Positions 8,456 through 62,531 of a stretch of DNA of 64,000 bases are shown one piece after another. Numbering within the stretch: the stretch's first letter is position 1; each line of letters opens with the position of its first letter. The translations under genes were made by a program, and so were the position numbers. The notes beneath the pieces were generated by a model. The model was not told the DNA's origin. It worked only from the letters and a program-made list of their open reading frames with translations, and made no database searches. This stretch comes from Spirosoma aureum (GTDB lineage: Bacteria; Bacteroidota; Bacteroidia; Cytophagales; Spirosomataceae), in NCBI RefSeq assembly GCF_011604685.1, contig NZ_CP050063.1, positions 8,834,243-8,898,242 of the forward strand, in the 5' to 3' direction.

Positions 8456-8522
8456 GTTTGTGGTTCGTGGTTTACAGTTCTTCAATCGAACAATAAATCA
8501 CAAACTACAAACCACAAACAAA
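8456..8522. repeat. heptad-periodic inverted element between the exbD genes
   Basis: Four 7-nt units starting at 8456, 8463, 8470 and 8477 follow the pattern GTTnnnn (for example GTTTGTG, GTTCGTG). Four units starting at 8495, 8502, 8509 and 8516 follow the inverse pattern AAAnnAC or similar (for example AAACTAC, AAACCAC). The halves can pair as an imperfect stem of about 18 bp around a short spacer. It fills almost all of the 78-base gap between the two exbD genes. Confidence 0.7.
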
Positions 8523-8529
8523 ATAAGCC

Positions 8530-9066
8530 ATGGCAGAAATTAACACCGGTGGTGGTGGTGGTAAGCATGATGGTGGTAAGGTACGGTCCAAGAAGGCGTC
8601 TACCCGTGTGGATATGACGCCAATGGTAGACTTGGGCTTCCTTCTAATCACCTTTTTCATCTTAGCCACCACCTTGAGCAAGCCATCTTCGATGACGCTC
8701 AACGTACCGGATAAAACCAAAACAGAAGAAACGGAGCCAATCAAAGCCTCCAACGTAATGACGATCTTTCTCGGGAAAGACAATAAAGCCCACTATATTT
8801 TTGGTAAGGCTGCCAATGAAGATCCCGAAGTAAAGACTGTTGGCTACGGGTACGAATTCCGGCAGGCACTTCAGGAAAACGCAAAAAAAGTGGGTGGCGA
8901 AAAGTTTGTCGTCGTTATCAAGCCAACGAAACTATCAACTTACAAGAATATGGTTGATGTACTGGATGAAATGGCAATTACCAAACTTAAGCGTTACGCG
9001 CTGGTAGACCAGTTGACCGCGGACGAGAAGAAGCTGCTCAAAGACAAAGCAAAATTAGACACCTAA
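8530..9066 (+). CDS. exbD: ExbD/TolR family biopolymer transport protein (second copy)
   Basis: A 178-residue paralogue with a Gly/His/Lys-rich N-terminus, then VDMTPMVDLGFLLITFFIL (about 27-45), containing the conserved Asp34 at the start of the single membrane helix, and a periplasmic domain. Two dissimilar ExbD proteins in one operon are the rule in Bacteroidota TonB clusters and may form a heterodimer inside the ExbB pentamer. The stop codon is four bases from the tonB start, so the two are translationally close. Confidence 0.93.
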   Translation: MAEINTGGGGGKHDGGKVRSKKASTRVDMTPMVDLGFLLITFFILATTLSKPSSMTLNVPDKTKTEETEPIKASNVMTIFLGKDNKAHYIFGKAANEDPEVKTVGYGYEFRQALQENAKKVGGEKFVVVIKPTKLSTYKNMVDVLDEMAITKLKRYALVDQLTADEKKLLKDKAKLDT

Positions 9067-9070
9067 CACC

Positions 9071-9895
9071 ATGGCAGAACTAGAATCCCAGGCAACGCTC
9101 GATGATATCGTGTTTGCCAATCGGAACAAAGCATATGGTGCCTACGATCTGCGGAAATCGTATCCAAAGACCGTTACGCGTGCCTTAATTATTGGTGGTA
9201 TTCTGTTTACGCTTGGCGTACTGACACCGACCATCATTACGGCTTTGACCCCGGAAAAACAAGAGCAGGCAATGGTTGAGGTGGATCTGATGAAGCTCCC
9301 ACCACCGCCAATTGACCCGAATGAACCACCGCCACCGCCACCACCACCGGTCGAACTACCGAAGGTGAATACAGTGAAATTCCTTCCGCCGGAAGTAAAG
9401 CCGGATGAGGAAGTACCGGAAGAAACTCCGCCACCAGCCGTTGAAGAGCTTAAAGAAGCCGTTGCTGCTGAAAAAACCCAGGAAGGTGACCCGAATGCTG
9501 AGGAAGTAATTGCTGCTCCTGAAGCTTCGGCAGCCCCTACCAAAGTTGAAGCTGCTGTTGAAGCTGCACCGAAAGAAGAAGAAATCTTTACGGTCGTAGA
9601 ACAACAACCAGAATTCCAGGGTGGTATGGCCGCATTAGGCCAATACCTGAGCAAAAACCTTCGCTATCCGGCAGCCGCTCAGCGGGCCAACGTTTCAGGA
9701 CGTGTGTTCGTTAGCTTCGTTGTTAATACCGACGGTAGTATTCAGGACGTACAGGTGTTGAAAGGTCTGGGCTTCGGTACAGATGAAGAAGCACAGCGTG
9801 TGGTAAAGGGTATGCCAAAGTGGCGCCCAGGCAAACAGTCAGGCCGTCCAGTTCGGGTAAAGTATAATCTACCGATCAACTTCACGCTGGAATAA
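9071..9895 (+). CDS. tonB: TonB family energy transducer
   Basis: A 274-residue protein. Residues 1-32 are cytoplasmic (LDDIVFANRNKAYGAYDLRK, a common start in Bacteroidota TonB proteins), followed by a membrane helix at about 36-56, a proline-rich stretch at about 77-125 with poly-Pro runs, a Glu/Ala-rich spacer, and the TonB C-terminal domain at about 175-274 (NLRYPAAAQRANVSGRV, then FVVNTDGSI and MPKWRPGKQ). It spans the periplasm and transmits energy from ExbB/ExbD to TonB-dependent receptors such as SusC-like porins. The proline-rich codons give an apparent Gly/Ser-rich frame on the opposite strand that is not a gene. Confidence 0.95.
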   Translation: MAELESQATLDDIVFANRNKAYGAYDLRKSYPKTVTRALIIGGILFTLGVLTPTIITALTPEKQEQAMVEVDLMKLPPPPIDPNEPPPPPPPPVELPKVNTVKFLPPEVKPDEEVPEETPPPAVEELKEAVAAEKTQEGDPNAEEVIAAPEASAAPTKVEAAVEAAPKEEEIFTVVEQQPEFQGGMAALGQYLSKNLRYPAAAQRANVSGRVFVSFVVNTDGSIQDVQVLKGLGFGTDEEAQRVVKGMPKWRPGKQSGRPVRVKYNLPINFTLE

Positions 9896-9902
9896 TCAAT
9901 CT

Positions 9903-10124
9903 ATGCGCGGACAAAATCGAGGTCCAGAGAAGCTAACACTATACATTTCAGTACTAGCTTCGCTGGCATACTTGGGAGGAGGCATCGCACTGATTGCCTC
10001 CTCTCAGTCTTTTGGAGTGTTTCCTGAGACCGGATTTTTGCGGTATGGGTTAGCAACACTCCTGCTGATTTATGGAAGTTTTCGGGCTTATCGTGCCTAT
10101 CAAGGTTTTCGAGCAAATGATTAG
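9903..10124 (+). CDS. small two-helix membrane protein downstream of tonB
   Basis: A 73-residue protein with hydrophobic segments at about 13-33 and 45-62 and a basic N-terminus and C-terminus. It starts seven bases after the tonB stop and overlaps the next gene by eight bases, so translational coupling in the TonB operon is likely. I do not recognise a named family. The operon position suggests an accessory role for the TonB system or for the following lipoprotein, but that is inference. Confidence 0.65.
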   Translation: MRGQNRGPEKLTLYISVLASLAYLGGGIALIASSQSFGVFPETGFLRYGLATLLLIYGSFRAYRAYQGFRAND

Positions 10125-11049
10125 ATCAGGAATTGGAGGGTTCGCCCTTCTACTAGGATTGCTTGGCTGTGATAGTGGAAAGCCAGCTTTGGATAATCCA
10201 TCCAGAGGCTCTATCGTAATAGCAGCCGACGAGTCATTCCGGCCATTGGTTACCCAGTTAACGTCGGCCTACTCAGGCATTTATCCTGACGCCCATTTTA
10301 AAATAATTTATACGCCTGAACAGGAGGCAATTAACCTAATGCTAAAGGATAGCGCCCGGATTGCTTTTACGACCCGAATGCTATCGACCAACGAAAAGGC
10401 GGTTTTAAATCAACGGAAGATTGTCGGGTCAACAACCAAATTGGCCACCGATGGTGTAGCGCTTATAATCAACAAAGCCAACAACGATAGTTTGTTAACA
10501 ATGAGTGAGCTGAAACAGGTCTTCACCGGAAAGCTCGCTCAATGGTCGCAATTGAAAGATGGAAATCAGTCAGGTCCCATTACGCTGGTATTTGATAATA
10601 ATAACTCCAGTAATCTGGATTTTATCCTGCATACCTTCGGAATTACTGATGTTAGAGGGCTGCGCATTTTCACGACGAAATCAAACCGGGAGGTTATAGA
10701 TTTTGTCCGAAAGAATCCATCCGCATTAGGCTTTATTGGTGTAAACTGGATTAGTGACGGCGATGAACCACTCACGGCCGAGCTTTCTAAAGATCTGCGC
10801 GTTGTTGGTATTTCGTCAAAAGAGAACCCAACAAAACGAGCTGATTACTTTCAACCATTTCAGGAAGATTTAGGGATGCAGCGATATCCTTTACGAAGAC
10901 CTGTCTACGTACTGAGTCGTGAATCACATCCGGGGTTGGGTGGAGGGCTCGTAAATTACGTTATGCGGGATGCGGGGTCACTTATTATTTACAAACTTGG
11001 ACTCTGGCCTTCAATTGCTTATAATCGGGAGGTAAACCTCAGGAAATAA
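10117..11049 (+). CDS. PstS-like substrate-binding lipoprotein
   Basis: A 310-residue protein. The ATG at 10117 was chosen because it gives a lipoprotein signal (MIRSGIGGFALLLGLLGC) with a lipobox ending at Cys18. An earlier in-frame start would spoil it. The mature part resembles the PstS-like phosphate/anion-binding fold: IVIAADESFRPLV near the start, IAFTTRML, LATDGVALIINKAN, LTMSELKQVFTGKLAQW, and ALGFIGVNWI. No pstABC permease is nearby. In many Bacteroidota a PstS-like lipoprotein and a TPR protein follow exbB-exbD-exbD-tonB, and that order is kept here apart from one inserted opposite-strand gene. The ligand is unknown. Confidence 0.8.
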   Translation: MIRSGIGGFALLLGLLGCDSGKPALDNPSRGSIVIAADESFRPLVTQLTSAYSGIYPDAHFKIIYTPEQEAINLMLKDSARIAFTTRMLSTNEKAVLNQRKIVGSTTKLATDGVALIINKANNDSLLTMSELKQVFTGKLAQWSQLKDGNQSGPITLVFDNNNSSNLDFILHTFGITDVRGLRIFTTKSNREVIDFVRKNPSALGFIGVNWISDGDEPLTAELSKDLRVVGISSKENPTKRADYFQPFQEDLGMQRYPLRRPVYVLSRESHPGLGGGLVNYVMRDAGSLIIYKLGLWPSIAYNREVNLRK

Positions 11050-11100
11050 TATTGTGTTTTGAGACTACAATTCTTAGAGAGTTAGGTATACTTCTTTTTC

Positions 11101-11142
11101 TCCCCCATATGTTATGTTTGCTTTACATGTGGGGGATTTTTG
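11101..11142 (+). terminator. terminator of the tonB operon
   Basis: TCCCCCATATGT (11101-11112) and ACATGTGGGGGA (11125-11136) form a stem with one mismatch, followed by a run of T. It lies 50 bases past the PstS-like gene stop. Confidence 0.8.
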
Positions 11143-11268
11143 TATCCCAACTATCGCTACCTGACGTAGATACTAATTGCCTATTCACTACTGCACTGTA
11201 TCTATCCAAACTCACAGTAATTCACCCTTCAACGTTAAAGTTGAAGATAGTGGTGAAAATTGCTTCGA

Positions 11269-12708
11269 TTAGGGCATAGTAAGCAAATTACGATACGCAG
11301 GATGGTGCAATACAAAATCGGCCGCAAAAGCTTCTCCCTGTTTCGACCAGTGACCATCGCAACTGATGTATAAACTGGCTAAAGCGCCTTTATAAGTCAG
11401 AAAAGCTGGAGCAAGAGAAATAAAAGTAGCTCCATTTGTACGGCAGAAATCGGACAAAAGGGGATCAATTCGATTTTCGGCCCCTTGTTTCAATGCCGAA
11501 AGATCGGCCAAAGTAGGTAATGAGAGAATTAGTACTTGTTTTCCTTTGGCTTCTTTGATCAATTGGGTAAGCGACTGACGAACATATTGCCACTGCTCTT
11601 CATTAAATGACTGATATCTGGTCATCTGCCCACTTTGAAAGCTTTTAGCATTAGCTTCTCCCAATAGCCGAAACAAACTGGAATGAGCCAATAAATCAGC
11701 TTTTAGTTTATTGCCAAATGACAGTGAAGAATACAATGAATCAACAACTTTCAATACTTTCGAGTTAGTCTGATGACCACTAGACAGAGCCTGACTCGTA
11801 TTGGCCAGGCTATATTTAAGTGTATAATCAGGTGCTTTACCATGCCAGTAAGGTACATAACTTGGCCAATCTACACGCGTATAATCCTGTCGTTCATCTA
11901 GGATTTCAAAATCATTGGCAGGCAAAAAACCCACAATTACAATATCATGGTCGAACTGTTTGACAACTCCTTTGTACATGAGGAAATAATGAACAGGATT
12001 AGAGCCATTTACGGCAAAATTCAGATGTTCAGCCCCGGTCTCGCGTTCTAATATAGATGAGAATCGATAAGGCTCATTAACCAGATATCCTTCCATGAAC
12101 GAATCACCTACTATAGCTACTCGTTTTCTTTGCGGATATAAATTGGTTAAAGACCGTTCACGGTCCATAGCCCCAACAGAGTTATAGGAACGTTGAATCG
12201 AATCCCCTTCACAATTCACAAATCGATCATTACCATTTGGCAAATGAGAGCGCCCTGCTATTGGATTTAAATCTCCAGCCGGAAAGGGGCGAATTGCGAT
12301 AACACCCGGAGAAACATAAAATCGTCTAAATACAAATGGAGAGCTTTTGACAAGCTGTAGGCCTAATACTATATGCCCTATTGTCTCTAACAGCATCAGG
12401 AAAAAAAGGGCAGATAGTAAAGTAAGCGAAAGGTTTTGTATCAATTTATGCCGTGCTAGCAGCATTAAATGCAGAAAGAATCCAATTAGGGTAACTATTA
12501 TACTAAGTTTCGCAATATTTTTATAGGCGAAGTTGGCAACTAATCCATCTCCATTAGTGATAAAATTATCATATACATAACAGATTAGTAGTAGGCTTAA
12601 CGTTATAAGTATGATCAGCCCCCAAAATGTAAACGCTTTTTTTTGACGCGATATACGGAGAAGGTCTTTGTTCAGGGCAGGCAGTTCATCTGTCAATATC
12701 GTTTGCAT
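11269..12708 (-). CDS. membrane-anchored SGNH/GDSL-type hydrolase-like protein
   Basis: A 479-residue protein with three N-terminal membrane helices (about 26-48, 64-85, 92-115) followed by a soluble domain of the SGNH fold. The block I motif appears as VAIVGDSFMEGY (Ser203 as candidate nucleophile), and near the C-terminus DGHWSKQGEAFAADF supplies a candidate Asp/His pair. Such proteins are often acyl-group esterases or acyltransferase partners for cell-surface polysaccharides. No polysaccharide genes are adjacent. It is a single gene placed opposite to, and between, the TonB operon and the TPR gene, which suggests later insertion into that cluster. Confidence 0.7.
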   Translation of the reverse strand: MQTILTDELPALNKDLLRISRQKKAFTFWGLIILITLSLLLICYVYDNFITNGDGLVANFAYKNIAKLSIIVTLIGFFLHLMLLARHKLIQNLSLTLLSALFFLMLLETIGHIVLGLQLVKSSPFVFRRFYVSPGVIAIRPFPAGDLNPIAGRSHLPNGNDRFVNCEGDSIQRSYNSVGAMDRERSLTNLYPQRKRVAIVGDSFMEGYLVNEPYRFSSILERETGAEHLNFAVNGSNPVHYFLMYKGVVKQFDHDIVIVGFLPANDFEILDERQDYTRVDWPSYVPYWHGKAPDYTLKYSLANTSQALSSGHQTNSKVLKVVDSLYSSLSFGNKLKADLLAHSSLFRLLGEANAKSFQSGQMTRYQSFNEEQWQYVRQSLTQLIKEAKGKQVLILSLPTLADLSALKQGAENRIDPLLSDFCRTNGATFISLAPAFLTYKGALASLYISCDGHWSKQGEAFAADFVLHHPAYRNLLTMP

Positions 12709-13256
12709 TAGTTTTTATTTAAACGAAGTTGGACTGTATTTTCTGGGTTATTGAAATCCCCGAAATACAATTGACCCCAAAAACTATTTTCAGGTTCGTT
12801 CCAACATTCCGGTGTGTGATAGAAGAGTAGATGCTAGCTTTTAAAGCTTTATGCACAAAGCTAAGGTATCACTATTTACAATACCAAGTTTCTTCCTGCT
12901 ACAAGTATAAATTACTCAATCTAATGTTCACTCATATGTAATTAACAACAACAGTATAAACACAAAGGAAAAAGGCTATTCTGCTGTTTTCTGGTCATTA
13001 TGGCTACTGAACCACATTCATTTATGGCCTAACTAAAAATATTGTGAACGATCCGGAAATATATAATTCAAAAAAAATACCACATACGGGCATACAAATC
13101 CCCTATCTATATAGTTATGTGTAAAAAAGGCGGTGTTTGGCAGATCGCTAAACGGACAAACGTAAAAGCAAGTTTTTTGATTTAAAAGCAATTTTTTAGT
13201 TTTGCTAATTGTTTAATACTCACAAAACCTTTTTTCTAATTTCCAACCTGAAATAC
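12709..13256. other. 548-bp AT-rich intergenic region between divergent genes
   Basis: No convincing open frame. It contains a small palindrome AGCTTTTAAAGCT near 12837 and, at its right end, a good promoter for the TPR gene (13176-13204). The left part must hold the promoter of the minus-strand SGNH gene, but no clean TAnnTTTG could be picked on that strand. Confidence 0.55.
13176..13204 (+). promoter_or_regulatory. promoter of the TPR gene
   Basis: TTTG at 13176-13179, a 17-base spacer, then TAGTTTTG at 13197-13204: an excellent match to the Bacteroidota consensus. Transcription would start near 13211. This excludes the in-frame TTG at 13209 as the start codon and supports the ATG at 13257. 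Confidence 0.7.
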
Positions 13257-15026
13257 ATGATGAACAACCAGAAAAAATCGCTGTTGACCATCCTGTTCGT
13301 GGGGGCCATGACTGCTCCATTGATGGCGCAGGACGTCCAAACGGCACTGAAAGACGTGGAGGCTGAGCGATTTGCGAAAGCAGGCCAAACTCTTACGCAG
13401 TTAGCCACCAGTTCGCCATCGGCTGAGAATCAATTCTACCTGGGTTATTATTACCTGAGAAGTGGACAAATCGATCAGGCTAAAGCAGCTTTCGAAAAGG
13501 GAGCAGCTGCCGATGCTAAAAATCAATTAAATAATATTGGGCTGGCTGGCGTAGCCTTAGCAAAAAAAGATCGGGCCACGGCCAAAACGTTGATTGATAA
13601 TGCTATTTCCGCAACGAAGAGCAAAGATCAGAATGCGTTGATCCGGGCGGGTGAAATGTACACCCTGGAGGAAACAAATGATCCAGCAGAAGCGATTCGC
13701 CTACTCACCATTGCTGATGAAAAAGACAAAAAGAACGAAAACGCCGAGATCGAGATGCTTCTGGGCGATGCGTATTTTTTGAAAAATGATGGTGGTAATG
13801 CAATCTCAAAATATGAAAATGCATTAACGATTACGCCAAATCTGGCAGAGGCTAACTACAAAATTGGCCGGTTGTATCTCCGCGGGAAGAACTATGCAAA
13901 AGCACAGGAGTACTTTAAACTGGCCGTCCAGAACGATCCAGAGTTTGCCCCTACGTATCGGGCCTATGCCGATGCACTTGCCAACTCCCGTGCCTATAAA
14001 GCGGCTGCTACAAACTACGAACTGTACGTGCAGAAGAGTGGTACAACCGATCCAGAGCAATTGCTTGATGTAGCTCGTTACAAATTCCTGGCTCAGGATT
14101 ATCAGGGAGCCATTGCCTATCTCGACCAATTGAAAGGAAAGATCAACAACCCAATTATTGATCGGATGTATGGCTGGGCTTACTCGGCACTGGGTAAAAA
14201 CAATGAATCGGTCGAATCATTGAACCGGTTCATCTCGACCGCTCCTCAGAAAGTAATTTATGACGATTACAAGTATCTAGGACGGGCATATGCGCAACTA
14301 GGAACACCAGAAGGCGATTCGCTTAGCATTATTAACCTGGAGAAAGCAGCTCCTCAGGATACAACGGAGAATCTGTACCGTGAGATTGGCGAGAAGCTTT
14401 ACAAGACCAAGAAGTACGACAAGGCAGCAACGTATTACGCGAAGACGATCGCGAACGATAAAAAACCACAAAACAATGACTTCTTGTGGTTAGGTCTTGC
14501 CAATTATCAATATGCACCACGCGTAGGTCGGGATAGCACAGTAGCGCAGATGGACACTGCGCAGATTAAGCAGGTGAAGCAACAGTATTACCTACGAGCA
14601 GATTCGGCGTTTACACAAATGGCGCAACGAATTGAAGCAGATGGTAAGAAGTATCCATTAGCTTACTACTATCGTGCCGGCGCTAACTACTATGCTTACC
14701 CGAACGATAAGGAGAAAGCTGCTAGTTTAGCTGGTCCGCTTTATGAAAAATTCATTGAGCAGGCAATGGCTCCGGATTCTTCGGATAAAACGGACTATAA
14801 GAGATACTTAGTAACGTCTTATAAAGCCTTGGCCGGATTCAGTATTTTAAAGAAAGACGACGCCAAAGCGAAGGAGTATTTCGAAAAGGTGCTGGCCATT
14901 GATCCAAATGATGAAAGTGTGAAGAAAGCGCTGGAAGGCCCGAAAGAAGCACCAGCACCAGCTACTCCGGCTAAGCCTGCCGTTAAACCCAAGACTCCTG
15001 CCAAAAAGAGTACAGCCGGTAAATAA
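13257..15026 (+). CDS. exported tetratricopeptide-repeat protein
   Basis: A 589-residue protein. The ATG pair at 13257/13260 is followed by a signal peptide (KKSLLTILFVGAMTAPLMAQ). The mature part is made of TPR helices from about residue 20 to 560, with clear repeats such as AENQFYLGYYYLRSGQIDQA, AEANYKIGRLYLRGKNYAKA and ENLYREIGEKLYKTKKYDKA, then an Ala/Pro/Lys-rich tail. It is probably a periplasmic or outer-membrane scaffold. It sits beside the TonB cluster, where Bacteroidota usually carry such a TPR gene after the PstS-like gene, so a role in the same envelope system is plausible. Confidence 0.85.
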   Translation: MMNNQKKSLLTILFVGAMTAPLMAQDVQTALKDVEAERFAKAGQTLTQLATSSPSAENQFYLGYYYLRSGQIDQAKAAFEKGAAADAKNQLNNIGLAGVALAKKDRATAKTLIDNAISATKSKDQNALIRAGEMYTLEETNDPAEAIRLLTIADEKDKKNENAEIEMLLGDAYFLKNDGGNAISKYENALTITPNLAEANYKIGRLYLRGKNYAKAQEYFKLAVQNDPEFAPTYRAYADALANSRAYKAAATNYELYVQKSGTTDPEQLLDVARYKFLAQDYQGAIAYLDQLKGKINNPIIDRMYGWAYSALGKNNESVESLNRFISTAPQKVIYDDYKYLGRAYAQLGTPEGDSLSIINLEKAAPQDTTENLYREIGEKLYKTKKYDKAATYYAKTIANDKKPQNNDFLWLGLANYQYAPRVGRDSTVAQMDTAQIKQVKQQYYLRADSAFTQMAQRIEADGKKYPLAYYYRAGANYYAYPNDKEKAASLAGPLYEKFIEQAMAPDSSDKTDYKRYLVTSYKALAGFSILKKDDAKAKEYFEKVLAIDPNDESVKKALEGPKEAPAPATPAKPAVKPKTPAKKSTAGK

Positions 15027-15042
15027 TTTCACGGACTAATGA

Positions 15043-15086
15043 ATCAAATAAAAAGCGCAGGCGACCGTCTGCGCTTTTTATTTGAT
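15043..15086. terminator. strong terminator after the TPR gene
   Basis: Two perfect 18-base arms (15043-15060 and 15069-15086) include the GC core AGCGCAG/CTGCGCT and T/A tracts on both sides, with an 8-base loop. Confidence 0.9.
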
Positions 15087-15148
15087 TTCCAGTTAATAAA
15101 AACCTGTTACCCGTTTCCAGTGCGTATATTATTTTCCGGGCGGAATCG

Positions 15149-15156
15149 TAACTTTG
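15149..15156 (+). promoter_or_regulatory. -7 box of the adk promoter
   Basis: TAACTTTG matches TAnnTTTG. The -33 region is weak. Initiation near 15163 would leave a leader of about 40 bases before the ATG at 15202 and rules out the upstream in-frame TTG at 15154. Confidence 0.5.
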
Positions 15157-15201
15157 CGGGCGCAAATTTTTACCCAGACGACACTACCTTATAGAAGCCG
15201 T

Positions 15202-15780: not shown

Positions 15781-15838
15781 ATTTTCGTTACTAACCCAGA
15801 AGAATACCTGAACTGTAGGTATAGGGAGTATATAACAT

Positions 15839-16849: not shown

Positions 16850-16911
16850 ATAGTTTCGAATTTAGTAAATCTGGCCGCCAAGAATACAACCTGGCCGCAT
16901 CTATACGCACT

Positions 16912-23393: not shown

Positions 23394-23399
23394 ATAGTA

Positions 23400-23477
23400 A
23401 ATGAGTGAATGGGTGAACAAGCAACCAGCTTCTTTTTACTCATTCACTCATTCGCTCGTTCACTCATTCACTAATTG
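23400..23477. repeat. octad-periodic inverted element between nuoB and nuoC
   Basis: Left units of 8 nt start at 23400, 23408 and 23416 (AATGAGTG, AATGGGTG and a degenerate third). Right units start at 23438, 23446, 23454, 23462 and 23470, ACTCATTC three times with variants. The halves are inverse complements. This is the same architecture as the heptad elements but with an 8-nt step. The in-frame TTG at 23475 lies within it, so nuoC is taken to start at the ATG just after. Confidence 0.65.
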
Positions 23478-23480
23478 AAG

Positions 23481-23981: not shown

Positions 23982-23987
23982 ATACTG

Positions 23988-24043
23988 GCGAAAGAGCGAA
24001 TGCGTAAATACGCATTTACTCTTTCTCTCTTTTACTCTTTAAG
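23988..24043. repeat. octad-periodic inverted element between nuoC and nuoD
   Basis: 8-nt units start at 23988 (GCGAAAGA), 23996 (GCGAATGC) and 24004. Further units at 24012, 24020, 24028 and 24036 (for example TCTTTCTC, TCTTTTAC) have roughly inverse-complementary content. ATGCG and CGCAT at the centre can pair. It fills the gap and ends two bases before the nuoD ATG. Confidence 0.55.
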
Positions 24044-24045
24044 AA

Positions 24046-25278: not shown

Positions 25279-25293
25279 TACAGTTTTCAGTTT

Positions 25294-28290: not shown

Positions 28291-28293
28291 GTA

Positions 28294-28370
28294 GTTTATA
28301 GTTAACTAGTTTACGGTTCTCCTAATTGGTATTTGCCAGTAAGTATAACCGAAAACTATAAACCGAAACG
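28294..28370. repeat. heptad-periodic inverted element between nuoG and nuoH
   Basis: The left half has units at 28294 (GTTTATA), 28301 (one base longer), 28309 (GTTTACG) and 28316. The right half has AACCGAA at 28347, AACTATA at 28354 and AACCGAA at 28361. The right units are inverse complements of GTTTATA-like words, so the halves can pair. It fills the gap before nuoH. Confidence 0.65.
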
Positions 28371-28377
28371 TTCACCA

Positions 28378-29544: not shown

Positions 29545-29546
29545 TA

Positions 29547-29613
29547 GTTTATGGTTTTCAGTTTTCAGTGTAGCCGATGGTTCATCACTGAAAACTGAAA
29601 ATCGAAAACGGAC
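29547..29613. repeat. heptad-periodic inverted element between nuoH and nuoI
   Basis: This is the clearest copy. Units at 29547 (GTTTATG), 29554 and 29561 (both GTTTTCA) are answered by 29586 (CACTGAA), 29593 (AACTGAA), 29600 and 29607. TTTTCAGTTTTCAGTG at 29555-29570 is an exact inverse complement of 29585-29600 or nearly so, giving a stem of about 16 bp that extends with mismatches. Confidence 0.75.
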
Positions 29614-29618
29614 AAAAC

Positions 29619-36511: not shown

Positions 36512-36526
36512 TAATCAACTTATTAA

Positions 36527-36597
36527 TCAATAAACACCAAAGCTATCAATAAGGCCAGAGTAAACACGGCCTTATTGATAGCTTTGGTGTTTATTGA
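36527..36597. terminator. 71-bp palindrome with 30-bp perfect arms
   Basis: Arms 36527-36556 and 36568-36597 are perfect inverse complements around an 11-base loop. It lies between the convergent oxidoreductase and anmK genes, 15 bases after the former stop, and probably terminates both transcripts. Confidence 0.85.
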
Positions 36598-36752
36598 GCC
36601 ACCGTGTGCGGTTATCCAATGGCTTTCCTCGGACTGAATCAACATGAAAATAGCCGCGCCATGGTGGATTCGTATTGCCCGTTTTCGTCCTCACCGTGTC
36701 GGTTTTTAGAAACCAATGCTACGTCACTGGATCACCTGCTTGACAGACGAAT

Positions 36753-37946: not shown

Positions 37947-37950
37947 ACAA

Positions 37951-38063
37951 GTTTGTGATTTATAATCTATAGTTTATGGTTGTAATTGCCCGGATCTTGT
38001 AGCGTACCAGTTTTTTTACTGATTACAGCGAAAATCCGAAAACCATTAACCGGAAACCGAAAG
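37951..38063. repeat. heptad-periodic inverted element in the anmK / kinase divergent region
   Basis: Five left units start at 37951, 37958, 37965, 37972 and 37979 (for example GTTTGTG, GTTTATG). Five right units start at 38029, 38036, 38043, 38050 and 38057 (for example CCGAAAA, CCGGAAA). TTTATGGTT pairs with AACCATTAA. About 43 bases of non-periodic sequence separate the halves. This is the only copy lying between divergent genes, so it covers both promoters or leaders. Confidence 0.65.
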
Positions 38064-38068
38064 TAAGC

Positions 38069-49674: not shown

Positions 49675-49740
49675 ATTTGTTTAGGTTCACTGGCAAGATG
49701 CAAGATAGTGTAGAGCAGGTTGCATGGCTACTAAAAAAAA

Positions 49741-49805
49741 TTAACAAAGAGGCACAAAACTTACAGTTTGAATTCCCTTCTGCAAGTTTTGTGCCTCTTT
49801 GTTAA
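49741..49805 (-). terminator. terminator of the cytochrome oxidase cluster
   Basis: Arms 49741-49765 and 49781-49805 (25 bases, one mismatch, 15-base loop). On the minus strand the hairpin is followed by eight U, so it ends the long respiratory transcript just before the sigma-factor operon. Confidence 0.9.
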
Positions 49806-51703: not shown

Positions 51704-51706
51704 AAC

Positions 51707-52840: not shown

Positions 52841-52855
52841 GCGTCTAATAGATTA

Positions 52856-53446: not shown

Positions 53447-53452
53447 GATTCC

Positions 53453-54331: not shown

Positions 54332-54332
54332 A

Positions 54333-55340: not shown

Positions 55341-57198
55341 TCAGGTTCTGTGCCTCAATCTCTTTCTCCAACGAAATCAACTCATTCTCATGCGGAAGGT
55401 TCGACTCAGGAGTTTGTGAGTATGGTACGTTTTGGGGGATGAAATCATCCTTTGCCCCTGGCTTGCTATAATCGTATGGCCAGCGATAAACGGCAGGAAT
55501 TTCGCCCGGCCAGTTTCCATGACCTGGGTTAATTGGTGCTGTCCACTCCAGCGTATTCGATTTCCACGGATTTTGCGGAGCTTTCCTCCCTTTGATCAGA
55601 CTGTGAACAAAGTTGTAGATGAAGATCCATTGAGCCGCGAAGGTGAAGATAGCCGCAAGACTAATGAAGCTATTCATGTCAGCGAAGATGTTTTTCGTGA
55701 AATCATAGCTCGTAAAGGCATAATATCGACGCGGGAAACCGGCGATACCGATATAGTGCATCGGAAAGAACACCAGGTAGATGCCGATAAATGTCAACCA
55801 GAAGTGAATGTAGCCAAGCTTTTCATTCATCATCCGACCAAACATTTTAGGGAACCAGTGATATACCCCGGCTAACAGACCAAATGCAGAAGCAGCACCC
55901 ATCACAAGGTGGAAGTGAGCTACGACAAAATATGTATCGTGCAACTGGATATCCAATGCTGAGTTACCCAGAATAAGTCCGGTTAAGCCACCTGAAATAA
56001 AGAACGATACCAGACCGATTGAGAATAACATTGCCGGAGTGAACCGGATATTACCACGCCAAAGGGTTGTAATGTAGTTAAACGCTTTTACAGCCGATGG
56101 TACAGCAATGATCAGCGTTAAGAACATGAAGATCGAACCGAGGAAAGGGTTCATACCCGTCACGAACATATGGTGCGCCCACACGATAAAGGCCAGGAAG
56201 GCTATACCCATCATAGACGCGATCATAGCGCGATATCCGAAGATCGGTTTACGTGAATTTGTAGCAATGATCTCCGAAGTCATACCAAGCGCAGGGAGCA
56301 GTACGATATATACTTCAGGGTGACCCAGGAACCAGAACAGGTGCTGGAACAGAATTGGGCTACCACCTACGTTTGGCAATGCTTCTCCCTTTATATAAAT
56401 CTCGGATAAATAGAAGCTTGTACCAAAACTACGGTCGAAGATTAGCAATAGCGCGGCTGACAAAAGAACCGGGAAAGAAATCAGACCAAGAACCGCCGTC
56501 AGGAAGAATGCCCAGATGGTCAGCGGTAATTTGCTGAATGACATTCCACGTGTGCGTAGGTTGATAACTGTCGTAATGTAGTTAATACCACCCAATAGCT
56601 GCGACACAATGAATAGCGCCATACTGACCAGCCACAATGTCATCCCTAATTCTGAACCTTTATGTGCCTGTGGTAATGCACTCAATGGTGGATATACAAC
56701 CCAACCACCCGCAGCCGGACCTGTTTCAATAAACAGTGACGACAGCATCAGTACACTTGCCAGGAAGAAGAACCAATAGGAGAGCATATTTAGGAAGCCA
56801 GACGCCATGTCACGGGCACCGACCTGCAACGGAATCAGGAAGTTTGAGAATGTACCGCTCAAACCGGCCGTTAGCACGAAGAATACCATGATCGTTCCGT
56901 GCATGGTTACCAGTGCGAGGTAAAAGTCCTGATCTAATTTGCCAGCCTCATTAATCCAGCCACCGAGAATTGGTCGTAAGAATTCCAGCTTCATAGCGGG
57001 GAAACCCAGCTGAAGTCGGAACATTACAGACAAGCTGATCCCAATAATGGACCAGAAGATACCTGAGATCAAATATTGCTTGGCAATTGTCTTATGATCT
57101 TCAGAAAAAATGTATTTGCGCCAAAAACTTTGCGGCTCATGGTGATCATGCTCTTCTACATGAGCCACAGTTGCCGAATTAGCTGATACAGTCGCCAT
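55315..57198 (-). CDS. coxA: cytochrome c oxidase subunit I
   Basis: A 627-residue catalytic subunit (heme A, heme a3, CuB) with 12 or more helices. Motifs include TMHGTIMVFFV, WFLGHPEVYIVLLPALG (CuB His and cross-linked Tyr), the paired His of AHHMFVTGMN and HDTYFVVAHFHLVMG (heme a3/heme a ligands). The HPEVY and K-channel region is of the A-type family. N-terminal and C-terminal tails are His/Glu-rich. Confidence 0.97.
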   Translation of the reverse strand: MATVSANSATVAHVEEHDHHEPQSFWRKYIFSEDHKTIAKQYLISGIFWSIIGISLSVMFRLQLGFPAMKLEFLRPILGGWINEAGKLDQDFYLALVTMHGTIMVFFVLTAGLSGTFSNFLIPLQVGARDMASGFLNMLSYWFFFLASVLMLSSLFIETGPAAGGWVVYPPLSALPQAHKGSELGMTLWLVSMALFIVSQLLGGINYITTVINLRTRGMSFSKLPLTIWAFFLTAVLGLISFPVLLSAALLLIFDRSFGTSFYLSEIYIKGEALPNVGGSPILFQHLFWFLGHPEVYIVLLPALGMTSEIIATNSRKPIFGYRAMIASMMGIAFLAFIVWAHHMFVTGMNPFLGSIFMFLTLIIAVPSAVKAFNYITTLWRGNIRFTPAMLFSIGLVSFFISGGLTGLILGNSALDIQLHDTYFVVAHFHLVMGAASAFGLLAGVYHWFPKMFGRMMNEKLGYIHFWLTFIGIYLVFFPMHYIGIAGFPRRYYAFTSYDFTKNIFADMNSFISLAAIFTFAAQWIFIYNFVHSLIKGRKAPQNPWKSNTLEWTAPINPGHGNWPGEIPAVYRWPYDYSKPGAKDDFIPQNVPYSQTPESNLPHENELISLEKEIEAQNLNDQFKQPH

Positions 57199-57226
57199 AG
57201 TATTTGGTTACTTGTGAGTTTAAAGA

Positions 57227-58348
57227 TTAACGGATCGTAGCACGGGCTACCGATACCCCACCACCTTGCTTAATTGATGCTGTTACACTGTCGGCCGGAG
57301 CAGCAGCTGCATCGGCAGGCAAATACTTGGCGGCTTTTGCTTTCAGATTAGCCGGAATACGAACTGCCAGTTCAGGAGTCGATGAAAGTAGTGGCTTTTG
57401 CTGTTTGCACCAGGCTTGCCAGGAGGCTTCATCTTCTACAATTAAACGTATACGCATAGAGAAGTGGCCCTGACCACAAACTTCCGTACAGGCAATCTCA
57501 TACCCGAAATTCTGATCGCCGGTAATGTTACGCATTTCATCCGTCGTCTTATCCGCTACAAACCAGAACCGAGTTGGCATACCTGGTACGGCATCCATTT
57601 TCACGCGTAAATGCGGGATAAAGACACTGTGCAATACATCGCGGGCCCTGATTTTTAACAATACAGGTTTTCCAACGGGGATGTGAAGCTCTGATGTAGA
57701 AACAAAATCATCGAACGACGCTTCATCCGTATAATCAATTCCAGTCTCATTGTTGTTGTCAATGAGCTTATAATTGTAAGAGCCGAGTTTGTTATTATCA
57801 ACACCTGGGTAGCGAACAATCCAGTTGAATTGTTTTCCTACAATCTCAAATACCTGCGCATCAGTAGGTGCCTCTGCCATAATATCACGCCATGCCCGCC
57901 AGCCGGTGAATACCATGACTGCCATTACAATAGCGGGAATAACCGTCCAGATTAACTCAAGCTTATGGTTTTCTGGATAATAAGCAGCTTTACGTCCTTC
58001 TTTATGCTGATAGAGCCATGAGAAGATAAATAAAAGCGCATTCGTAACAACGAAGGCTACAGTAATGATAGCCATCGAAAGCCAGAACAGGAAATCTGTC
58101 CGTCGTCCATGAGGAGATGAAGCTTCTGGCAGGAAATACTGGCGTGCGTATAAAAATGACCACACGGCTCCGATTAATCCAACCACAAAAAAGATCATGA
58201 ACATAGCTCCATTGATCTTGTTGCTTAATCCAATCCGACCTTCTTCGGCTGGCCCCGATGCATTCTTCACGACGGTGGCTATCCGGGAAACTACCAAAGC
58301 AGCCAATCCCAGAAAGATTACCGATAATAAAGCGACTATATAAACCAT
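57227..58348 (-). CDS. coxB: cytochrome c oxidase subunit II
   Basis: A 373-residue subunit with three membrane helices (an extra N-terminal one, about 1-20, then about 48-68 and 88-112) and a periplasmic cupredoxin domain. CuA ligands are in RDVLHSVFIPHLRVKMD and ACTEVCGQGHFSMRI. No C-terminal heme c domain is fused, so a separate cytochrome c or the ACIII heme subunits must deliver electrons. The C-terminal tail is Ala/Lys-rich. Confidence 0.95.
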   Translation of the reverse strand: MVYIVALLSVIFLGLAALVVSRIATVVKNASGPAEEGRIGLSNKINGAMFMIFFVVGLIGAVWSFLYARQYFLPEASSPHGRRTDFLFWLSMAIITVAFVVTNALLFIFSWLYQHKEGRKAAYYPENHKLELIWTVIPAIVMAVMVFTGWRAWRDIMAEAPTDAQVFEIVGKQFNWIVRYPGVDNNKLGSYNYKLIDNNNETGIDYTDEASFDDFVSTSELHIPVGKPVLLKIRARDVLHSVFIPHLRVKMDAVPGMPTRFWFVADKTTDEMRNITGDQNFGYEIACTEVCGQGHFSMRIRLIVEDEASWQAWCKQQKPLLSSTPELAVRIPANLKAKAAKYLPADAAAAPADSVTASIKQGGGVSVARATIR

Positions 58349-58367
58349 TTTGTGAGCGGGTTATTGA

Positions 58368-59677
58368 TTAAATGTCGTGGTGTAAGGATTCCTCCAGCAT
58401 TGGGTGATTCTTTGGAATCAAATTGGCTTTCGACAGTTGCGATGAAAGTGTCCACATGAAACCACAGGCAAAAATCAGAATCATACCGAATTCAATCGGT
58501 CCAAAACCACCGTGTTCCCCTACCGTTCCCGGCATGATGTTGGTGTAGAAATCAAAATAGTGACCTATAATGATTCCCCATGCAGCCAATTTCAGGAAAA
58601 TATACGTACGTTTTGCATCCCGTGTCATCAAAACCAGGAATGGAAAAACAAAGTTTAAGAAAATGTTTATGAAAAACGGGGCTTTGTAAATACCGCCGAA
58701 ACCGCTGAAACGCTCCCGATAATAAATGGTTTCTTCGGGAAGGTTGGCGTAATAGATCAGCATAAACTGGGCAAACCATACATAAGTCCAGAAAATACTG
58801 AAGGCAAACATAAACTTACCTAAATCGTGTAGATGGCTCTCGTTAACGATCTTCAGATAACCTTGTTCTTTTAACGTTACAACGGTCAGTGTAATGATAG
58901 CCAATCCTGTAACGTGCCAGCTTGCCAGTGTATACCAGCCAAACATGGTGCTGAACCAGTGCGTATCGATAGACATCACAAAATCCCATGCCGATGTCGA
59001 TGATGTTACACCAAATACAAGCAGAAAGGCAGTGCCCCATTTAATACTTTTCTCGTAGTATTCCGTACCACCTTCCAGATCTTCCTGCAATGAGAAGTTC
59101 CGTATTTTCAGCCATAGGAAATACCAAAGTCCAAAATAGGCAATAATACGGCCCAGGTAGAATGGCGTATTCAAAAACCCTGACTTGCCATTAATGATCG
59201 GATCAAACTCAGGGCTGCTCTTGTCAAAAAGCGCTGGATTAGTCCAGTGGAATAAATCATGACCAGCCAGAAAAAACACAGCTAGAATGGCAATTCCTGC
59301 AAATGGTAAAAAAGCGGGCATTGCTTCAGGAATACGCTTAAAAGCGGATGACCAGCCTGCCTGAGCCAGATAGTTATAGGAAATGAAAAACAGGCCAATA
59401 ACGGATGCTCCAGCGAAATAGACCGCATTCAGCCAGACATTGGCCCACAAGCGATTCGTCCACTTATAAGCGTGGTGCCCTGCTTCATGGCCCTCATGCG
59501 CACCAGCACATGAACAACTTCGTGAGTCTCATGAGAACCAGCACCCGATGCCAATAAGTACGCGCCGATTGCCACCAGCGCCACTCCGGCTCCGATGCCG
59601 ATCAGTAGTCGACGCTTGGATTCCGCAGTAAATTCAAATTCTTCGTCTAACGACGGTATTGCGTGAGCCGATGCCAT
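58368..59677 (-). CDS. actF: alternative complex III subunit ActF (frameshifted)
   Basis: The reading starts at ATG 59677 (ASAHAIPSLDEEFEF, then a membrane helix) and continues to about 59505, where one base is missing. The second frame then reads AHEGHEAGHHAYKWTNRLWANVWLNAVYF (in part) to the stop at 58368. Corrected length is about 436 residues with about ten membrane helices, including FFISYNYLAQAGW, SAWDFVMSIDTHWFSTMFGWY and MLIYYANLPEETIYY. That matches ActF, a quinol-oxidising membrane subunit of ACIII. The continuous homology across the break suggests a sequence error and not a true mutation. Confidence 0.85.
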
Positions 59678-59685
59678 TTTTTAAA

Positions 59686-59750
59686 AGTTTGCAGTTGCCA
59701 ATAGGCGGTAGGTACTTTCTGCTGACTAGCAACTGATTACTGCCTACTAA
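59686..59750. repeat. heptad-periodic inverted element between actE and actF
   Basis: Plus-strand units start at 59686 (AGTTTGC), 59693 (AGTTGCC), 59700 and 59707, and then at 59723, 59730 (CAACTGA), 59737 and 59744 (CTACTAA). CAGTTGC at 59692-59698 pairs with GCAACTG at 59729-59735. Same architecture as in the nuo and exbD gaps. Confidence 0.6.
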
Positions 59751-59754
59751 AAAT

Positions 59755-60380
59755 TTATCCTTGTTGCAATTTGTGTACGTACTGCACAATTTTCCACCGA
59801 TCTTCAGGCGTAATCTGTGATCCGTGTGGCCACATCCGGCCCTTTCCGTGTGTAATCACATGGAAAATATGACCGTCGTTCATGGTTTTATAAGCATCCG
59901 TCGAATAATTCGGAACGCCTTTATACTCTTTACCAACCAGGCCATCGCCTTTACCACCTTCACCGTGACAGTGCGAGCAGTAACGGGTATATAAAACCTT
60001 TCCTTCATCCAGTGTTTTATCAGTCTGAGGAATTGGGTTTGTCAAGGTCCGCTCCGCGATCGAAATGCTATCGGCGGGAATGTTATAAATCATCAAGTCT
60101 GTTGATGCACTGTCGCCACTTCCAAATTTAGTATGGTAGTTCGGGCGAGACACCGTTCCTTAGCAGGCAGACGCATGTTCAGGCCGTTTTCCTTTACGTT
60201 AATCGTATTGGACCGAACCTGACGATACGGTTCATACCCAACAGCATCGTACATGTTTGGGGCGAATTCAAGGCCAGGATTATCATGACCACGTTTACAG
60301 GAAGTTCCTGCAAACAACAGTCCAACGATAGCCAACGCCGTTACGCTTGTATGTTTAGTTATCATTCTCATCCTGACCAT
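59755..60380 (-). CDS. actE: alternative complex III subunit ActE, monoheme cytochrome c lipoprotein (frameshifted)
   Basis: Starting at ATG 60378-60380, a lipoprotein signal ends at AGTSC. EFAPNMYDAVGYEPYRQV follows, a segment conserved in ActE. Near 60150 one G appears to be missing (AAGGAACGG in place of AAGGGAACGG on the coding strand). The second frame continues SRPNYHTKFG to the heme motif YCSHCHGEGGKGDG and MWPHGSQITPEDRW. Corrected length is about 208 residues. The start overlaps the actD stop (TAATG). Confidence 0.83.
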
Positions 60381-60912
60381 TAAAACTGCTTAACGTTAAC
60401 TTCTGCAGCGCCCGACTTTCTCAAAATCTGCTCTATATCACCTTCACCAATCGTGTTTTTGCTCAGATCAATGGCCATTGCAAACTTATTATCGGTAGTT
60501 CTGAGGTCATACATTAAGGGTTTCACTGTTGGGCCAAGACCGTTCGATACCAGAAAAGTACCAACCATGCCAGGGCGCAAAAAAGTACCGTTAATTCAAA
60601 GATAATCGGCACATAAATGATCGGCGAATAGGAATCTTTACCCCCAACAATCATTGGCCAGTCAAAACCTTCCGTATAGAAGGTCAGCAAAAGCGCTGTC
60701 GTCGTGCCCGACAAAGCAAATAGGAAAGCGGCAATTCCTAGCCGGGAGCGTGGGTGTCCAAGTGCAACGTCTAATCCGTGGATCGGAAAAGGCGAATAGA
60801 CTTCATGAATACGTACACCTTCTTTTTTGATATCCTTAACGGCTTTCAGTACCACATCATCATCATCGAAGATGCCTACCAAGAATTTACCGTTACCATT
60901 TACATCTGACAT
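60380..60912 (-). CDS. actD: alternative complex III subunit ActD (DUF3341, frameshifted)
   Basis: From ATG 60912, GKFLVGIFDDDDVVLKAVKDI and YSPFPIHGLDVALGH are conserved ActD segments, followed by two membrane helices. A one-base deletion near 60571 (after the codons for FCALA) moves the frame. The other frame continues MVGTFLVSNGLGPTVKPLMYD to the stop at 60380. Corrected length is about 177 residues. ActD is a small membrane subunit without cofactor. Confidence 0.83.
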
Positions 60913-60926
60913 GATCAGTGATTATT

Positions 60927-60980
60927 GTTTGAGGTTTATAGCTCGACGTTTATAGTTTACGGCTACAAACGTCGAGCCGC
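60927..60980. repeat. heptad-periodic inverted element between actC and actD
   Basis: Units start at 60927 (GTTTGAG), 60934 (GTTTATA), 60941 (GCTCGAC), 60948 (GTTTATA), 60955 and 60962. GCTCGACGTTT at 60941-60951 is the exact inverse complement of AAACGTCGAGC at 60967-60977. The element occupies most of the gap between the actD start and the actC stop. Confidence 0.65.
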
Positions 60981-61005
60981 CCGGCTACCCGGCTCGAACT
61001 AGTTT

Positions 61006-62427
61006 TTATTCTACGCCTTTATTAAACGTTGGATTCGCCACGCGCTCGCCTTTGGCAACTCCCGATACAGACACGGGTAATTTTTCAGAAGACGATTTAA
61101 TGACGGTTTTCACTTCAGCCATGTTCACTACCGGCAAAAACTTGGAGAACAGCAGGAACAGCGTGAAGAATAAACCAAACGAGAAATATAGTCGCTGATG
61201 TCGAATAAAGTTGGGTGGAACATCGCCCAGCTTGATGGCAGGTAATCGCGGTGCAGGGAGGTAACGATAATTACGAAACGCTCAAACCACATACCGATGT
61301 TCACAACTACCGATAACGTAAAGGTCCAGACAATACTCCGACGGATAGCCCGCGACCAGAAAACTGCGGTGTAATTACATTGCAGGTCATCATAGCCCAG
61401 TAAGCCCACCAATATGGTCCGGTGGCACGGTTTATGAAAGCATAGCTTTCAAATTCAACGCCAGAATACCAGGCAATGAAGAACTCAGTCAATACGCCAC
61501 CCCTACAATAGAGCCGGTCAGCGTAATAACTTTATTCATCGACTCAATGTGCTCCAGTGTAATGTAATCTTCCAGTTTGAAAACGACGCGAATGATCAGA
61601 ACCAGGTTTTGCACCATGGCAAACCCCGAGAAGATAGCACCTGCAACGAAATAGGGCGGGAAGATGGTGGTGTGCCAGCCAGGAATAACCGACGTGGCAA
61701 AGTCCATACTTACAATGGTGTGTACTGACAGTACCAATGGAGTAGAAAGACCGGCCAGGATCAAGCTCATGTATTCGTAGCGTGCCATGTTTTAGCTGAA
61801 CCATTCCAACCCAGCGCGAAAGCACCGTAGATATAACGAGATACTTTGCTACGGGCACGGTCGCGGATGGTAGCCAGGTCAGGTACCAGACCCATGTACC
61901 AGAATACCAGCGATACGGTAAATAGGTACTAATGGCAAATACGTCCCAAACCAAGCGGAGACTTAAAGTTTACCCAAAGTGAGCCAAATGTGTTTGGCAG
62001 CGGTAATGCCCAGTAGGCCAGCCAGGGCCGCCCCATGTGCATCAGAATAAACGATGCTGCACAAATAACGGCAAAGATGGTCATAGCTTCGGCAGCCCGG
62101 TTAACAGCTGTCCGCCATTTTGGCGGAACAGCAGCAGAATGGCTGAGATCAGCGTACCAGCGTGACAATACCGACCCACCATACGAAGTTGGTGATGTCC
62201 CACGCCCAACCGACTGTTTTATTCAAGCCCCATACACAAGGCCTTCCCACCAGGTCCAGAACACGCAGGCGGTTCCGTAGAGTAGCACAATCACCGAGAT
62301 GGTAAAGGCAATCGTCCACTCGCGGGTGGGGCTTCCCTCAACCTGTCTGCTGATATCTCTGTCACGTCGGCATAGGTCTTGCCACCGGTGACCAGGGGAG
62401 TTCTTACGGTGATGTTACATGCGACAT
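61006..62427 (-). CDS. actC: alternative complex III subunit ActC (NrfD-like, many frameshifts)
   Basis: Fragments in all three minus frames join into one NrfD-type quinol-binding membrane protein of about 475 residues. In order they read [152 protein letters not shown] and [20 protein letters not shown], ending NPTFNKGVE at 61006. At least ten single-base shifts are needed. The probable start is ATG 62427, itself followed by a shift. Intact conserved motifs argue for sequence errors. Confidence 0.8.
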
Positions 62428-62448
62428 ATACTTACTTTTTTATTTTTC

Positions 62449-62531
62449 GATTTGCGATGTACAACTTACGGTTTGTGGCATCACGATGTTTAAAAACACC
62501 GCAACTAGTGACCATAAGTCATAAGTTTATT
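62449..62531. repeat. heptad-periodic element between actB and actC
   Basis: Plus-strand units start at 62449 (GATTTGC), 62456 (GATGTAC), 62463 and 62470. After a spacer, further units start at 62497 (CACCGCA), 62504, 62511 (ACCATAA), 62518 (GTCATAA) and 62525. The 7-nt period is clear, but the two halves pair less well than in other copies. The right end reaches the actB stop at 62530. Confidence 0.5.

Follow-up and report, generated by a model that had tools for sequence, protein, structure and literature searches.

Polar quasi-palindromic elements with 7- and 8-nt steps in the gene spacers of Spirosoma aureum and its relatives

Periodic Hairpins in the Window

The DNA analyzed here (the window) is a stretch of 64,000 nucleotides (nt) from Spirosoma aureum (genome G000; G000:C1:8834243-8898242), located at the end of one 8.9-Mb contig, in which many spacers of nuo, exbD, and other gene rows hold hairpin-like elements built from degenerate tandem words. 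A preliminary description had listed nine such gaps, named by the positions 5793, 8456, 25282, 28294, 29547, 37951, 59686, 60927, and 62449, with words stepping every 7 nt and with inverted halves able to fold. When each named gap was compared with 300 dinucleotide shuffles (smallest possible p 0.003), lag 7 went beyond the shuffles in seven of the nine (p 0.003 to 0.013); the claimed step was not significant in the 28294 gap (p 0.169), and the 25282 gap is too short to judge. The inversion was borne out by predicted folding, with fold z of -2.8 to -6.6 in seven of the nine gaps, the exceptions being 59686 (-1.2) and 25282 (none). Genes were called with a purpose-built simple caller rather than taken from annotation. 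Because a sliding lag-7 score on the raw window was too blunt (one place at a strict threshold, three at a looser one), a local segment score judged against dinucleotide-preserving shuffles of each gap was needed for lag autocorrelation.

The clearest case lies between nuoH and nuoI (29545..29618, plus strand; flanks PF00146 and Fer4), where GTTTATG/GTTTTCA words give a lag 7 z of 12.4 (p 0.003) and a fold z of -6.6. Also on the plus strand, the gap between two exbD genes (8452..8529; PF02472 on both flanks) holds an element of the GTTTGTG class (lag 7 z 7.2, p 0.003; fold z -6.5), and one of the TAATGGA/CATTATC class (5781..5869; lag 7 z 9.1, p 0.003; fold z -4.9) is situated between a protein gene and tRNA-Pro; this gap, which ends at the tRNA-Pro gene (5870-5944), was tested as 5781-5875, including the first 6 nt of the tRNA. 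The nuoG/nuoH gap (28291..28377, plus strand) contains an imperfect GTTT-type hairpin with a fold z of -2.9, and the 15-nt half-form CAGTTTTCAGTTT (25279..25293, plus strand) consists of two units only, with a lag 7 p of 0.063 and no hairpin.

On the minus strand, 7-nt elements occupy a divergent gap (37947..38068; lag 7 z 4.8, p 0.003; fold z -2.8) and two gaps of minus-strand gene rows, at 59678..59754 (AGTNNNC type; lag 7 z 5.5, p 0.003; fold z only -1.2) and at 62425..62529 (lag 7 z 4.3, p 0.007; fold z -3.5). The minus-strand hairpin at 60913..61010, with GCTCGAC/GTTT words and a fold z of -4.7, has a mixed period (z 3.0 at lag 7, 3.4 at lag 8, and 7.3 at lag 14): p is 0.013 at both lag 7 and lag 8, the signal is strongest at lag 14, and there is no clean 7-mer.

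Two plus-strand elements absent from the earlier list step by 8 nt within the same nuo gene row, namely one of the GAGTGAATGAG class downstream of a nuoB-like gene (23394..23480; PF01058; lag 8 z 14.4; fold z -6.2) and one of the GGCGAAAGAGCGAA class upstream of the 49-kDa subunit gene (23982..24045; PF00346; lag 8 z 12.6; fold z -5.0). The 7-nt period is therefore real but not the only step. Pfam searches supported the exbD pair, the NuoB-like and 49-kDa subunit genes, and nuoH/nuoI as neighbours. The proposed placement within single operons applies to most of the nine gaps, with 5793, ending at tRNA-Pro, and the divergent 37951 falling outside it. At the Rfam gathering score, tRNA was the sole match in the window, and the elements match no family. 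The window also has long hairpins, near-perfect and with neither a 7- nor an 8-nt period, at 36512-36600 and 49675-49800 (gap fold z -7.7 and -6.4).

Period, Polarity, and Position across Genomes

Gaps of 30-250 nt without N were scored in samples of three genomes, shorter, longer, or N-containing gaps being dropped: G000 (864 kb, 430 gaps), G021 (800 kb, 370 gaps), and G003 (400 kb, 169 gaps). G021 is a near relative of G000 (~95% identical), and these two samples share history and are not independent. The genome-wide excess of 7-nt autocorrelation over shuffled gaps, on which the preliminary description had made the element depend, was found in all three. Lag 7 exceeded z 4 in 36/430, 20/370, and 23/169 gaps, respectively; the corresponding counts for lags 14, 8, and 4 were 20, 16, and 12 in G000, 21, 21, and 8 in G021, and 15, 12, and 8 in G003, compared with 2-7 gaps for lags 5, 6, 9-13, and 15 in G000 and 0-5 and 0-4 for the other lags in G021 and G003. 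The element is thus a real and widespread feature, and 7 nt and 8 nt are both genuine steps; some of the excess at lag 4 probably arises from the 8-nt words as a sub-period.

The arms are polar, with a G-rich 5′ arm and a C-rich 3′ arm, far more than in ordinary hairpins. Among periodic hairpins of co-directional gaps, the 5′ arm contains more G than C in 28/30 (G000), 26/26 (G021), and 21/23 (G003), 75/79 in total, with pooled frequencies of G 0.33-0.34 and C 0.11-0.12 in 5′ arms and of G 0.15-0.16 and C 0.27-0.28 in 3′ arms. The bias is weaker in non-periodic co-directional hairpins (49/71, 45/72, and 19/25; pooled 5′ G 0.27-0.28 and C 0.20, 3′ G 0.24-0.25 and C 0.22-0.23). GC skew in periodic gaps starts at about +0.39 behind the stop codon and reaches -0.35 to -0.62 in the last 45 nt; in other gaps it is -0.05 to 0.08 behind the stop, takes intermediate values thereafter, and lies between -0.16 and -0.40 over the final 15 nt. 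Rehm and colleagues reported a G-rich strand oriented likewise at the edges of open reading frames (ORFs) in Xanthomonas and Nostoc (PMC4692102).

As the preliminary description had indicated, periodic hairpins lie mostly between same-strand genes: G000 and G003 together carry them in 53/446 co-directional versus 7/153 other gaps (p 0.0078; length-matched 42/246 versus 3/65, p 0.0094). The separate counts are 30/313 versus 4/117 in G000, 26/263 versus 2/107 in G021, and 23/133 versus 3/36 in G003, where the difference by itself falls short of significance. Within gaps of at most 130 nt (n = 24, 23, and 18 in the three samples), the stem starts a median of 2, 3, and 4 nt past the stop codon and ends a median of 9, 8, and 15 nt ahead of the next start, and the elements cover the greater part of the spacer; a similar position is seen for non-periodic hairpins in short gaps. 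Each of the three frames meets a stop within 45 nt past the stop codon in 33, 35, and 26% of cases, versus 12, 14, and 14% after shuffling, a by-product of a period that is not divisible by three and thus spreads any stop in the word. As for the T-run of intrinsic terminators, among 30 and 23 stems none of those that could be scored is followed by at least six T in the next 8 nt, the scoring covering stems not too close to the gap end; the test is weak, as convergent hairpins had such runs in only 2/34 and 1/14 cases.

Turnover at Orthologous Gaps

Orthologous gaps were drawn from 35 genomes of the same genus, and given the kinship among these genomes the counts are not independent. At nuoH/nuoI, where gaps shorter than 30 nt (3/35) were left out, a 7-nt period with differing words is present in 14/32 testable gaps, compared with a genome-wide co-directional rate of 31/313; at nuoG/nuoH, missing in 1/35, lag 7 was detected in 6/34 and lag 8 in 4/34. 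The exbD/exbD set covers 21 genomes (of the 35 matching genomes, 15 lie outside it), of which 14 share a similar 44-66-nt spacer without hairpin or period. Six others carry an unrelated sequence of 72-102 nt that is predicted to form a hairpin (fold z between -2.7 and -7.8), three of them with a period at z>4, and the remaining one (G027) has a gap of 20 nt, excluded from z tests.

On a midpoint-rooted FastTree phylogeny of nuoH and nuoI, in which some branches are weakly supported, the old exbD spacer is found on both sides of the root, and exbD/exbD elements turn up at no fewer than three distinct points (G004; G005; and G019 together with G000 and G021). In several comparisons the outer ends of the gap are conserved and the interior arms differ (nuoH/nuoI, L021 versus L023 and L025 versus L026; exbD/exbD, L222 versus L227). 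The preliminary description had suggested checking whether orthologous gaps keep the period while changing the words, and had regarded close relatives lacking both period and inversion as evidence to the contrary. The former is seen in 14/32 nuoH/nuoI gaps and the latter in 14 of the 21 exbD/exbD gaps, so the challenge to the original claim succeeded only by half. The recurrence of the hairpin design in relatives while its words are rewritten points to a copying process that overwrites gaps.

The old exbD/exbD spacer (..GATTTTCACCACGCGAATCTGTTAAGAAAAC; L215-L221 and others) is well conserved in its 14 genomes though non-coding, and may have a role of its own. The nuoG/nuoH gap of several relatives (L027, L036, L041, L092) holds a different double palindrome, resembling GTGGTGTCGGGTTC..GAACCCGACACCAC.

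Word Classes and Their Spread

In the commonest class of the window, the 5′ arm carries GTTTNNR and the 3′ arm the complementary word. The exact GTTT..AAAC pattern yielded 13 matches in G000 and 32 in 6/18 relatives, all of the same genus, with backward controls of 0 in both cases. The reversed polarity, AAAC..GTTT, yielded none in G000 and two matches in two relatives, its own backward control giving 0-3 in a few genomes; for either polarity the counts include overlapping matches and those on both strands. Of 395 Bacteroidota genomes, 36 contain matches, 19 of them from a single further genus, which is represented by 23 genomes and where the matches listed carry mainly GTTTCAR/GTTTAAR words; backward controls in this set were mostly 0, not always, and in G423 equalled the matches.

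A scan of a named genome collection, performed without a shuffled control, returned at least 119 stretches. In the 80 stretches listed, 83 elements were placed, of which 48 lie between co-directional, 10 between convergent, and 7 between divergent genes, 2 fall inside an ORF of at least 120 amino acids, and 16 are undecided. The matches listed include Flavobacterium, Spirosoma, Fibrella, cyanobacteria, Acidobacteria, Desulfobacterales, and others, and among them the commonest NNR is CAG/CAA in Flavobacterium, TCA in Acidobacteria, and TGA in four cyanobacteria, the numbers outside Flavobacterium being small.

The 8-nt word GAGYGAAW, counted per strand with overlaps, has 83 matches in G003, 47 in G004, 28 in G002, and 6 in G000, with none in G006, G007, and G009 or in six genomes of other families. 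Another 8-nt class, AAGTTGTA, occurs in the nuoG/nuoH gap of four relatives, and further 7-nt classes include GGAGTGA and TAATGRA. The claim that architecture and not sequence is conserved thus requires qualification: words turn over, but they are not free, the main class keeping to the GTTTNNR skeleton with a fixed polarity.

GC-rich apex motifs, GGCTGACGCA and CCATCCGGCAG, were observed at hairpin tips with differing arm words (gaps of the G003 sample; L209-L214). All six copies of GGCTGACGCA (either strand) in the G003 sample lie within scored gaps, four of them in periodic hairpins, and their arms differ.

Proposed Arm-to-Arm Copying and Competing Explanations

We consider the chances about even that the elements are self-templating quasi-palindromes, shaped by template switching from arm to arm together with slippage in 7- or 8-nt steps, and tolerated or used as intercistronic hairpins. 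An ordinary spacer would first be converted into an element, as seen by comparison at one gap with a direction suggested by the tree. Polymerase slippage in 7- or 8-nt steps would then lengthen or trim an arm, producing a degenerate tandem array. One arm may subsequently template the other by template switching in a DNA hairpin, the step that finds support below; if so, the arms would change together, stay complementary, homogenize within an element, and drift between elements. In the transcript, the hairpin would fill the spacer from just past the stop codon to just ahead of the next start, where it would be tolerated and is probably used, affecting translation or stability of the next gene. 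In view of the polarity and of the small number of word families in each genome, the likeliest addition to this scheme would be that words are copied from elements elsewhere in the genome.

Support for the templating step comes from the comparison of G000 with G021, in which an orthologue was located for 312/430 gaps (118 without), including 28 periodic hairpins; the pair counts exclude two non-periodic gaps with identity below 0.8. With G000 as reference, both arms of periodic hairpins had changed at 14 of 879 pairs, compared with 2.5 expected under independence and 4.3 with partners shifted by 2-6 nt, and 11 of the 14 keep the pair; with G021 as reference, the count is 12/844 versus 3.3, with 10 keeping the pair. 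In the clearest example, at G000 index 211499, a GGT/ACC block in one version corresponds to GCC/GGC in the other (two pairs) and an A-T pair to a G-C pair, with either direction of change possible, so that three base pairs differ on both sides while both versions are near-perfect palindromes. At index 681287, G000 carries a compact and near-perfect palindrome, G021 a longer and imperfect one. Of the three causes raised in the preliminary description, which also included an RNA structure and a protein-binding array, template switching fits these data best; the mechanism is supported, not proven. Template switching has been documented to create, fix, and maintain hairpins (PMC8794818), and polymerase slippage has been put forward as a hypothetical source of the heptamer excess in bacteria (PMC4692102). 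The asymmetric pairs reported for template-switch hairpins favour G-C and U-A (PMC8794818), of which only the G-C half fits the elements described here.

However, several observations weigh against arm-to-arm copying. Both-arm changes are in excess in non-periodic hairpins as well (53 versus 21.4; 36 versus 17.4 with the other reference), about 2.5-fold over the control in ordinary hairpins compared with about threefold in periodic ones, so that either the process is not special to periodic elements or selection contributes. The counts are small, resting on those 28 hairpins, and adjacent double changes appear in only 1 of the 10 periodic elements with double changes. Over ~5% divergence, periodic hairpins are mostly static, with a median identity of 0.941, like other gaps, and equal length in 19/28, which means that slippage is not often seen and that turnover is slow at this divergence. 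Finally, the polarity, the genome-specific words, and the shared apex motifs are not predicted by template switching on its own, and the genome-wide sharing of words, with apex motifs recurring on different arms, is beyond what local copying explains.

Copying in trans is therefore still to be taken seriously, whether as a rival of local copying or as an addition to it. That the elements are dispersed mobile palindromes, copied into spacers in the manner of repetitive extragenic palindromes (REPs) or miniature inverted-repeat transposable elements, is possible, if somewhat improbable. The sharp genome specificity of word families such as GAGYGAAW would be accounted for, as would the recurrence of GGCTGACGCA with different arms and the exbD/exbD word class common to G000 and G004, which old-spacer genomes separate on the tree. 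Yet no Y1 transposase of the REP-associated tyrosine transposase (RAYT) type was detected at E 0.001 in G000 or G021, nor was a Y1 transposase found in G002 despite its 28 matches of the 8-nt pattern; such genes are present in 29/36 genomes of the genus. Since, moreover, 12 Y1 loci of relatives lacked clear flanking copies (ungapped stems only), RAYT transposases were rejected as movers. No target duplications or fixed termini stood out in the aligned gaps, where no systematic search for them was made. The fuller apex core CCATYCGGCAG..TGCGYCAGCC, with only 6 matches in 4/36 genomes, was likewise rejected as a mobile unit.

It is rather unlikely that selection on an RNA hairpin is the main cause, the hairpin setting expression ratios or coupling the translation of neighbours while its sequence is free as long as folding is kept. 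The co-directional enrichment, the placement of stems a median of 2-4 nt past the stop and 8-15 nt ahead of the start, the excess of all-frame stops, and a lower substitution rate at paired than at unpaired sites (0.053 versus 0.064) all agree with such a role, and coupling through RNA unfolding is described as an established model (PMC12548453). According to the same source, however, structure just downstream of the stop correlates negatively with coupling. Non-periodic hairpins share both the stop/start geometry and the difference between paired and unpaired rates, and the hairpin is dispensable at a given site, exbD/exbD being without one in most genomes; fold z falls below -3 in 16/34 nuoG/nuoH and 14/32 nuoH/nuoI gaps, compared with 95/313 co-directional gaps overall. 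Transitions that keep a G-U pair were inconsistent (19 versus 14 by one reference; 23 versus 7, p 0.005, by the other), and since the reference genomes disagree, G-U tolerance was dropped as a sign of RNA selection. Selection for folding predicts no 7- or 8-nt period.

A binding array for a repeat protein reading 7 nt per module would explain the regular 7-nt step, but the words are variable, both inside an element and from one element to another, the same gene row also has an 8-nt class, and no evidence for such an array turned up, no search for a candidate protein having been made; this explanation is very improbable. G-quadruplex elements, as proposed for the Xanthomonas and Nostoc heptamers with the same strand orientation at ORF edges (PMC4692102), are scarcely credible here, as direct reading finds no GGG tracts in GTTTDYR, GAGYGAAW, or AAGTTGTA words.

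A broader form of the self-copying proposal may also be considered, although it is unlikely: polarity-bound DNA with a G-rich 5′ side, a C-rich 3′ side, and a 7- or 8-nt step would overwrite operon spacers in many phyla, with lineage-own words on shared skeletons such as GTTTNNR, and the footprint of a putative copying enzyme would set the step.

Relation to Known Repeats and Significance

Heptameric intergenic repeats as such are already known, and the 8-nt class, the strong polarity, the spacer replacement, and the signs of arm-to-arm copying are new. Cyanobacterial short tandemly repeated repetitive (STRR) sequences have been the topic of earlier papers. Heptamer families are also mentioned in a survey of prokaryote satellites (PMC6749651).

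The closest relatives are the GGGAATC and GGGGA(C/T)T heptamers of Xanthomonas and Nostoc, which are degenerate, mostly intergenic, and mostly located between co-oriented ORFs; 70 and 75 inverted pairs were counted in two Xanthomonas genomes and few in Nostoc, and the repeats mostly occupy the same gene pairs, with length and sequence varying between relatives (PMC4692102). The elements described here share the 7-nt period and the co-oriented intergenic location. Whereas the Xanthomonas and Nostoc heptamers are reported as G-rich and quadruplex-forming, several word classes here are without G-tracts, an 8-nt class exists, and the arms are often paired.

The TAACTGA repeats of Beggiatoaceae, Cyanobacteria, and five Bacteroidetes are likewise 7-nt and intergenic, mostly just upstream of starts, and resemble the AAACTGA units of 3′ arms here; they are direct, with one indirect case, and keep a fixed word, and both horizontal transfer and a post-transcriptional regulator have been proposed for them (PMC4679880, MacGregor 2015). 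In Nostoc, the P6b stem of the trnL intron consists of 7-nt repeat motifs that keep pairing, one class replacing another, but it is located inside a group I intron (PMC4476775, Kaasalainen 2015). REP/RAYT palindromes are also intergenic, with CGTC repeats in some Bacteroidetes, and are characterized by a GTAG or CGTC tag at one end of a short conserved palindrome (PMC3733652). The arms here, by contrast, have no alignable common sequence, and no RAYT-type gene was found in G000 or G021; in G003, a motif containing GCGTCAGCC recurs and is sited at the hairpin apex. Template-switch hairpins offer a mechanism that creates and repairs stems, shown for rRNA and microRNA genes and not for tandem-unit spacers (PMC8794818).

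No description of the inverted-half design in Bacteroidota was found in searches of an open-access library, most subscription journals being outside the search. The earlier statement that no element of this design was known in Bacteroidota nevertheless needs qualifying, given the inverted degenerate heptamers of Xanthomonas (PMC4692102) and heptamers in some Bacteroidetes (PMC4679880).

A single architecture with a testable polarity rule would unite the scattered 7-nt repeats of cyanobacteria, Xanthomonas, and Beggiatoaceae. Spacers beside essential genes (nuo, exbD) are wholly different between related species, yet the hairpin often returns, which provides a natural system for studying arm-to-arm template switching and makes the old question of the bacterial preference for 7 nt testable through close strains. 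If the hairpins act on translation, they would represent fast-evolving tuning parts within operons.

A minor observation concerns the last 4 kb of the contig: relative to G021, window positions 60000-64000 lack 18 bases and carry few substitutions (136), and the ORFs are fragmented, reflecting either contig-end sequencing errors or decaying genes.

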